Shown here: positions 1-21,729 of the stretch, one piece after another | Numbering within the stretch: the first letter of the stretch is position 1 | Layout: each line of letters opens with the position of its first letter | DNA from: Nitrospirota bacterium | GTDB lineage: Bacteria > Nitrospirota > Thermodesulfovibrionia > Thermodesulfovibrionales > JdFR-88 | Length of the DNA: 61,166 nucleotides | Assembly: GCA_014874185.1 (NCBI GenBank) | Contig: JACWAF010000012.1 | Location: 1 to 61,166, forward strand | Direction of reading: 5' to 3' | Notes under the pieces: model-generated | Databases searched by the model: none | What the model was told of the DNA's origin: nothing | Seen by the model: only the letters and a program-made list of their open reading frames with translations | Position numbers and translations under genes: made by a program

Positions 1-137
<137 letters not shown>

Positions 138-20619: not shown

Positions 20620-20844
20620 CTATTCCGGAAAAAGCGGCACGGGGCCGCAAAGGGACGCCTCATCTTCCGAAAACCTCCCGCACCGGAGGCAGACGAACCG
20701 CACTTTCCTTATCTTTTCAGGGCAGAGGTGGCCGCTGAGGGAGGGCCTTCCGCAGACGGGACAGGGCTTCAGTTGAGGGGCGGGATGGCAGAAGTGAAGG
20801 GAACCGCCGGTTTCACGGGCACATCCCGGACAGATCGGGCACAC
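20620..20844 (-). CDS. Small cysteine-rich zinc-ribbon-like protein
   Basis: A 74-residue protein with ten cysteines: CPICPGC at 2-8, single Cys near 19, CPVC at 28-31, single Cys near 41, CLRC at 52-55 and a Cys near 66. The CxxC pairs suggest two or three small zinc ribbons. It starts at a GTG three bases after the stop of the DsbC-like selenoprotein, so it is probably the last gene of that unit. I do not recognise a family. The weak ribosome site and short length leave some doubt. Confidence 0.5.
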   Translation of the reverse strand: MCPICPGCARETGGSLHFCHPAPQLKPCPVCGRPSLSGHLCPEKIRKVRFVCLRCGRFSEDEASLCGPVPLFPE

Positions 20845-20847
20845 GGG

Positions 20848-21687
20848 CTATCTCTTCCGGGAAACTTTTTTGACCGGGCTCAGTCTATTTTTTGCGTTCT
20901 CGTCCAGTATCTTTATAAGCTCGGCGGCCGGCCTGTATCCGGCCAGTATCTTCCCATCGGGAAGTATGATAGTGGGCGTGCCTGTGATGCCAAGCTGCTG
21001 GCCGAGTTTAATGTTCTGGTCTATTTCGGGGGCCGCGCATTCGGGCTTGGGTATGGGTTTGCCGTTGAACGAGTCTTCAAGGAGCGCCAGGGACCTCTTG
21101 CACTCTATCTCCTTGGCCCTCTCGTAGGAGCCGGGGTGCATCTTCAGCGGGAAGAGCTTCAGATAGAACGCGATGTCCTTTCTCTTTTCGACCACCTTCT
21201 TCATCTCCTGATGAAGTTTTCCGCAGAATGGTCATTCGGGGTCGTCGAAGACGATGGCCTTTATCGGGGCGTCGGCCCTGCCCAGGAGGAGCGCGTCCTT
21301 GACGGGGACCTTCGCGAAATCGACTGTCTTCTCATTAAGCTCTTCTATCTTGCTGCGGGTAAGGGATTTCCTGTCTTTTACGCTTATTATCTCGCCGGGT
21401 ATTATGTGCTGCTTGGCATAATCCAGGTAGACGAGGCCGATCCCGTTCTTCCCGGTCATCTCGTATTCGATCTCCCACAGGCCGCCCACTGGCGAGAGGT
21501 TCACCTTGAGCACTTTTACCTGCGGGTTCAGGGCCCTCAGAATGTTCTGGGCCTCGCCTTTGTCCAGCTTGTGGCAGGTGCGGCAGTCGCCTCCGCAGGT
21601 GCCCGCCGCGCTTCCGAAGGCGTGCGCCGAGGCGCGGGCCGATATCGCAAGCACAACCGCGAAGATTATGGGCAGAATTTTGCGCAT
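20848..21687 (-). CDS. DsbC-like thioredoxin-fold selenoprotein with CxxCH motif
   Basis: A 279-residue exported protein if the in-frame UGA at 21234..21232 is read as selenocysteine (residue 152). A signal peptide covers about 1-23. Next comes C31, then CRTCH at 35-39 (a c-type heme motif or redox cysteine pair), a beta-rich dimerisation-like region, and a thioredoxin fold with active site Sec-Pro-Phe-Cys (152-155) in the context VFDDPE-U-PFCGKLH, matching the FxDPxCPxC of DsbC/DsbG. A second Cys pair (near 183 and 203) and the cis-Pro loop TGTPT near 225 are also as in DsbC. Conventional gene calling would give two ORFs (21232-21687 and 20848-21204). TATAAT lies seven nt before the ATG and there is no Shine-Dalgarno. 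Alternatives are a sequencing error or a recent nonsense mutation. Confidence 0.82.
21190..21234 (-). promoter_or_regulatory. Candidate bacterial SECIS element
   Basis: Directly after the UGA (21234..21232) the RNA can fold into a lower stem GACCAUU/GGUGGUC (21233..21227 with 21196..21190) and a perfect 7-bp upper stem CUUCAUC/GAUGAAG (21216..21210 with 21205..21199) closed by the loop AGGA. The loop starts 22 nt after the UGA and has G at its second position, within the published bacterial SECIS rules (16-37 nt; G in the first two loop bases). Confidence 0.7.
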
Positions 21688-21694
21688 CGGGAAA

Positions 21695-21700
21695 ATTATA
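21695..21700 (-). promoter_or_regulatory. -10 element of the selenoprotein gene
   Basis: TATAAT on the minus strand, seven nt before the ATG at 21687; leaderless type. The -35 is weak. Confidence 0.5.
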
Positions 21701-21729
21701 TCATATTTTGAAGATAAAAAACCCCCGCC

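Follow-up and report, generated by a model that had tools for sequence, protein, structure and literature searches.

Two open reading frames (ORFs) lie in one frame on the minus strand of a 61,166-nucleotide stretch of Nitrospirota DNA (here called the window), with nothing but a UGA codon between them. Are these two genes, one gene broken by mutation or by a sequencing error, or one gene in which the UGA is read as selenocysteine (Sec)? Comparison with homologues makes us highly confident that the last is the case, and that the gene encodes a DsbC-like selenoprotein.

The gene and its predicted product

On translation of the window, the UGA (21234..21232) proved to be the sole interruption of the minus-strand frame 21687..20848, and the coordinates and the split into two ORFs without a frame change were as the initial annotation had given them. 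With TGA translated as U, the motif VFDDPE-U-PFCGKLH described there was reproduced. The read-through product (279 aa, then a TAG stop; 20848..21687) is an exported protein with a DsbC_N and a thioredoxin domain and the active site U152-P-F-C155, in which the UGA (21232..21234) would supply Sec as residue 152, the first residue of the UxxC site. Genome-wide reassignment of UGA, which the initial annotation had already discounted, was ruled out because, of the window's 36 other long ORFs, 17 have TGA as their normal stop.

The product begins with a putative signal peptide (approximately residues 1-22; 21622..21687, minus strand, as are all features of this gene), recognised by inspection from its AxA-type end and appearing in the structural model as a helix at residues 5-16 followed by a low-confidence stretch. 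After it comes a CxxCH motif, C35-R-T-C38-H39 (21571..21585), which is invariant in a 54-row alignment. A DsbC_N-type dimerisation domain (PF10411; 31.2 bits, cut-off 25) covers residues 45-110 (21358..21555) and a thioredoxin-fold catalytic domain (PF13098; 71.3 bits, cut-off 27) residues 143-261 (20905..21261); both Pfam families were matched by 54/54 aligned homologues, PF10411 at E<=0.01. Beyond the UGA lie the second Cys pair, C196 and C217 (21037..21102), and the TGTP loop with the cis-proline pair T237-P238 (20974..20979). The initial annotation had counted both as family features, and they are indeed conserved, the Cys pair in 100% of Sec and Cys forms and P238 likewise in 100%.

An AlphaFold2 model built from the 54-row alignment (pLDDT 90, pTM 0.72) had DsbC as its top structure matches (1eej, 4i5q), with both domains covered. 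Over both domains the TM-scores were 0.44-0.58 with a large rmsd, which we take to reflect a differing domain orientation. The catalytic domain by itself superposes well on 3gv1_A (TM-score 0.83 by target length, 2.5 A). DsbC is also the nearest curated NCBIfam name, at 66.9 bits, well under the equivalog cut-off of 215; we therefore regard the protein as DsbC-like and not as an E. coli-type equivalog, and an isomerase function of the E. coli type is not assured.

Codon usage at residue 152 in homologues

A pattern-based scan of GTDB genomes returned 48 loci, nearly all from Nitrospirota metagenome-assembled genomes. Since one of the patterns (KLHQEMKK) falls within the hairpin described below, we also searched 396 genomes of the phylum with a profile, which is free of this bias. 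Matches at E<=1e-20 occurred in 147 of them, and the DNA of most of the stronger matches was retrieved. In a first set of 163 distinct genes, the codon for residue 152 was TGA in 83, TGC in 42 and TGT in 38. When this set was enlarged with 30 genes of a second phylum, the 192 distinct homologues had TGA (85), TGC (65) or TGT (42) and no other codon, so that exactly this column holds only Cys or UGA; none of them was seen to end naturally there. The active site follows the pattern U/C152-P-x-C155; residues U/C152 and C155 are 100% conserved, with Sec in place of the first Cys in about half of the homologues. Sec forms are scarcer outside Nitrospirota, where they account for 3 of 30 genes (L219, L220, L238).

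These counts bear on the idea that the TGA is a nonsense mutation in a pseudogene, or a sequencing error, at an original TGC or TGT. Only one base separates TGA from either Cys codon and the assembly is in 42 contigs, so such a change is easily pictured. Against this, 85 distinct homologues, down to approximately 42% identity, carry the same UGA together with the hairpin, and both halves of the gene are still conserved in frame. Recurrence of the same UGA in independent genomes makes a sequencing error very unlikely, and the explanation as a whole is vanishingly improbable.

The hairpin downstream of the UGA

A candidate bacterial SECIS hairpin, CUUCAUC-AGGA-GAUGAAG (21216..21199, minus strand; loop 21209..21206), is present where it had been reported, with the loop starting 22 nt past the UGA. 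Folded alone, the window hairpin had a z-score of -2.4 and was equalled by 4 of 200 shuffled sequences; as this is only modestly above the shuffles, conservation and not energy must support it. In the unbiased Nitrospirota set, which was not selected on the motif, all 7 pairs occurred at the fixed position in 71/72 Sec genes versus 1/76 Cys genes. When the codons of these Sec peptides were resampled among synonyms, an average of 2.2 genes out of 72 had the pairs, and never more than 8. Across all loci the 7-bp hairpin is kept in 84/85 Sec and 3/107 Cys genes, and the first or second loop base is a G in 85/85 and 60/107, respectively. Compensatory changes were found as well: three genes have C-G for U-A (CAC...GTG), with Met replaced by Val as a consequence, and L238 has a change at a different pair, CTC...GAG.

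The same stretch is biased at the level of codons and residues. The codons CTT and AAG are each found in 72/72 Sec genes, as against 17/76 and 35/76 Cys genes, respectively, while residue +8 is Q in 83% of Sec versus 14% of Cys forms and residue +10 is M in 94% versus 26%. This bias in the Sec genes indicates that the RNA, besides the enzyme, fixes the hairpin stretch. An RNA element here dictates protein sequence: positions +8 and +10 are close to fixed in the genes that need the hairpin and in no others.

The hairpin also contains an in-frame ATG (21204), 30 nt past the UGA. Together with the existence of the two ORFs, this would allow a reading in which the UGA ends translation and the ATG starts it anew, giving a CxxCH/DsbC_N protein and a separate C-terminal thioredoxin fragment. 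A protein restarted there would lack U152 and C155, the two catalytic residues, each 100% conserved; moreover, 107/192 homologues run through the column uninterrupted, with Cys, and this reading would explain neither the hairpin nor the absence of TAA and TAG among the stops. We consider two proteins very improbable. Conservation ruled out a pseudogene, a sequencing error and two independent ORFs alike.

Selenocysteine machinery

The initial annotation had proposed a search for the Sec machinery, and in the assembly containing the window (2.43 Mb, 42 contigs, 100% complete) tRNA-Sec, SelA, SelB and SelD were all found above curated cut-offs. The tRNA-Sec scored 71.9 bits (gathering score 47), with the anticodon TCA according to ARAGORN, and the proteins scored 359.8 bits for SelB (cut-off 242), 627.2 for SelA (cut-off 268) and 348.3 for SelD (cut-off 125). 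The SelD of this genome (G000:C12, L018 1387..2448, minus strand) itself contains Sec, encoded by a TGA in frame at the canonical position (SSCAG-U-AAK), and is an independent selenoprotein.

Among genomes with a Sec allele, selA was found in 63 of 65. It is also present in 34 of the 39 genomes with Cys forms only, so its co-occurrence is consistent with Sec decoding but, taken alone, is weak evidence. In G140, which has two UGA copies with an intact hairpin (G140:C38 and G140:C8; L122 and L151), we found neither selA nor selB; the cause is either an assembly gap or a recent loss of the machinery. In G215, which has a Sec allele, no selA was found and the SelB-like match was only partial.

Exchange between Sec and Cys forms

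We placed 178 proteins on an unrooted tree, with the Sec column and the stretch encoded by the hairpin masked. Sec and Cys forms are intermixed on it, with at least 24 changes by parsimony; this count is soft, as the tree method was a quick one, and six or seven of the changes are required by branches with good support. Among the 104 genomes read, the Sec form stands alone in 38 and the Cys form alone in 39, and both occur in 27. Tandem Sec and Cys gene copies were observed at L193 and L215 (G215, G388).

Three Cys genes (L137, L226 and L227) retain the full 7 pairs. These hairpins are apparent fossil SECIS elements left after a Sec-to-Cys change, and the grouping of L226 and L227 with the Sec gene L238 fits a recent change of this kind. 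From the genes sampled, the Sec DsbC-like protein is mostly one of Nitrospirota, interchanging with Cys forms. The many interchanges, the fossil hairpins and the genomes with both forms offer a natural experiment on what selenium gains for an extracytoplasmic enzyme. Sec forms make up nearly half of the Nitrospirota homologues sampled, and standard annotation would split each of them in two.

Genomic surroundings and expression

The gene is divergent from mutS. Immediately downstream is a small Cys-rich ORF (20620..20844, minus strand; 74 aa, GTG start) that has several CxxC pairs and is zinc-ribbon-like. At the edge of the window a 16S rRNA gene is cut, with its 5' end at 1..137 on the minus strand. 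Clustering of neighbours in the 5-kb flanks of the homologues revealed no conserved operon partner; the only recurrent families were that of the gene and a loose cluster of response regulators.

An extended -10 element, TGATATAAT (21695..21703, minus strand), lies 7 nt upstream of the ATG at 21687, with no Shine-Dalgarno motif, and the mRNA is probably leaderless on this sequence arrangement. The TGATATAAT-type -10/ATG arrangement recurs among the homologues, in 26/66 of the Sec and 16/85 of the Cys genes, just one of these 42 having a Shine-Dalgarno-like motif, and also precedes 3 other genes of the window.

Proposed function and the CxxCH motif

We propose that the two ORFs together form a single gene, and that its product is an exported DsbC-like thiol-disulfide oxidoreductase that would use Sec as its catalytic nucleophile. 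SelB and Sec-tRNA-Sec, the latter supplied by SelA and SelD, whose genes were found in the genome, would decode the UGA at 21234..21232 under the guidance of the hairpin beginning 15 nt on, a step that the comparative evidence makes nearly certain. Once exported, the protein would probably form a dimer through its DsbC_N domain. As in its family, U152-P-F-C155 may attack wrong periplasmic disulfides and reduce or isomerise them, and the chemistry of UxxC sites in thioredoxin-fold selenoproteins suggests that the attack by Sec on the substrate disulfide would be resolved by C155. Two CcdA-type DsbD_TM proteins, one adjoining a TlpA-like thioredoxin, are encoded in the genome, so a membrane thiol-electron route exists there, and re-reduction could proceed by such a CcdA/TlpA-type pathway. 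Under selenium shortage, termination at the UGA would leave a 151-residue product with the CxxCH motif and the dimerisation part.

The N-terminal CxxCH was the one point on which the initial annotation did not hold: it had judged the fusion unusual for this gene, and the motif, which follows the signal peptide of the exported protein, is conserved in approximately 93% of Sec and of Cys homologues and is present in all listed relatives of the second phylum. Being common to both forms, it is a family trait and not a peculiarity of the window gene. The motif probably binds haem c or makes an extra redox pair, although this assignment from sequence is uncertain; an obviously invariant distal haem ligand was not identified.

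The near-invariance of CxxCH across the family, the unreached DsbC equivalog cut-off and the presence of CcdA-type proteins would also suit a selenoprotein with a role other than that of DsbC, acting mainly in cytochrome c maturation or on another substrate, with CxxCH as a haem site or a mimic of an apocytochrome. This we find rather doubtful, since the DsbC_N domain, the second Cys pair and the cis-Pro loop are all retained and DsbC gives the best structural matches. By analogy with DsbC, an isomerase or reductase role of the Sec protein is the probable one. A bolder form of it, in which a dimeric periplasmic DsbC selenoenzyme acts throughout the family as isomerase or reductase with the Sec site coupled to a CxxCH haem, seems improbable to us; if true, electrons would have a new path between cytochromes and protein disulfides.

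Comparison with known systems

We take the domain cd02953 to be DsbD-gamma. A 2026 review of prokaryotic selenoproteins counts 119 families or subfamilies, among them a PF13098 'thiol:disulfide interchange protein' with UxxC (Table 1, PMC13188914). That family comprised three deltaproteobacterial sequences in 2006, from Syntrophus aciditrophicus, Geobacter metallireducens and G. uraniumreducens (PMC1794560), and the GOS study placed such proteins under cd02953 (PMC2398784). In itself, a disulfide oxidoreductase with Sec in a UxxC motif is plainly not new. The term 'DsbC' is absent from the main text of the review (PMC13188914), neither its list nor NCBIfam holds a family combining DsbC_N with Sec, and NCBIfam 20.0 has no fitting selenoprotein model. 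Our paper searches, with most subscription papers outside their scope, found no report of a Sec-DsbC, which is not proof of absence. The present gene would extend the use of selenium to a DsbC-type protein, in a phylum whose selenoproteome is little described in the papers searched.

The PF13098 UxxC family (PMC13188914, PMC1794560; WP_011366075.1) shares with the window protein the Pfam thioredoxin domain and the UxxC motif, whereas DsbC_N and CxxCH are undescribed there; the two were compared by description only and may be the same family. The DsbG-like NF041057 (Rcas_1661 family (seleno)lipoprotein) likewise shares the thioredoxin fold and UxxC, but only 7/54 aligned homologues match it, weakly (best E 0.0076), and it is absent from the window protein's NCBIfam matches at E<=10. 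In common with bacterial SECIS elements such as that of fdhF, the family hairpin is a stem-loop right after the UGA inside the coding region with G as its first or second loop base; it differs from them in its short 7-bp stem, its 4-nt loop and a sequence that is almost invariant family-wide. DsbC of E. coli and Salmonella (PDB 1eej, 4i5q) shares the signal peptide, the DsbC_N dimerisation domain, the thioredoxin fold, a CxxC-type site, the second Cys pair and the cis-Pro loop. In contrast to DsbC, the window protein is only about 22-26% identical to it, scores under the NCBIfam equivalog cut-off, has an extra N-terminal CxxCH and, on our reading of the UGA, carries Sec for the first active-site Cys.
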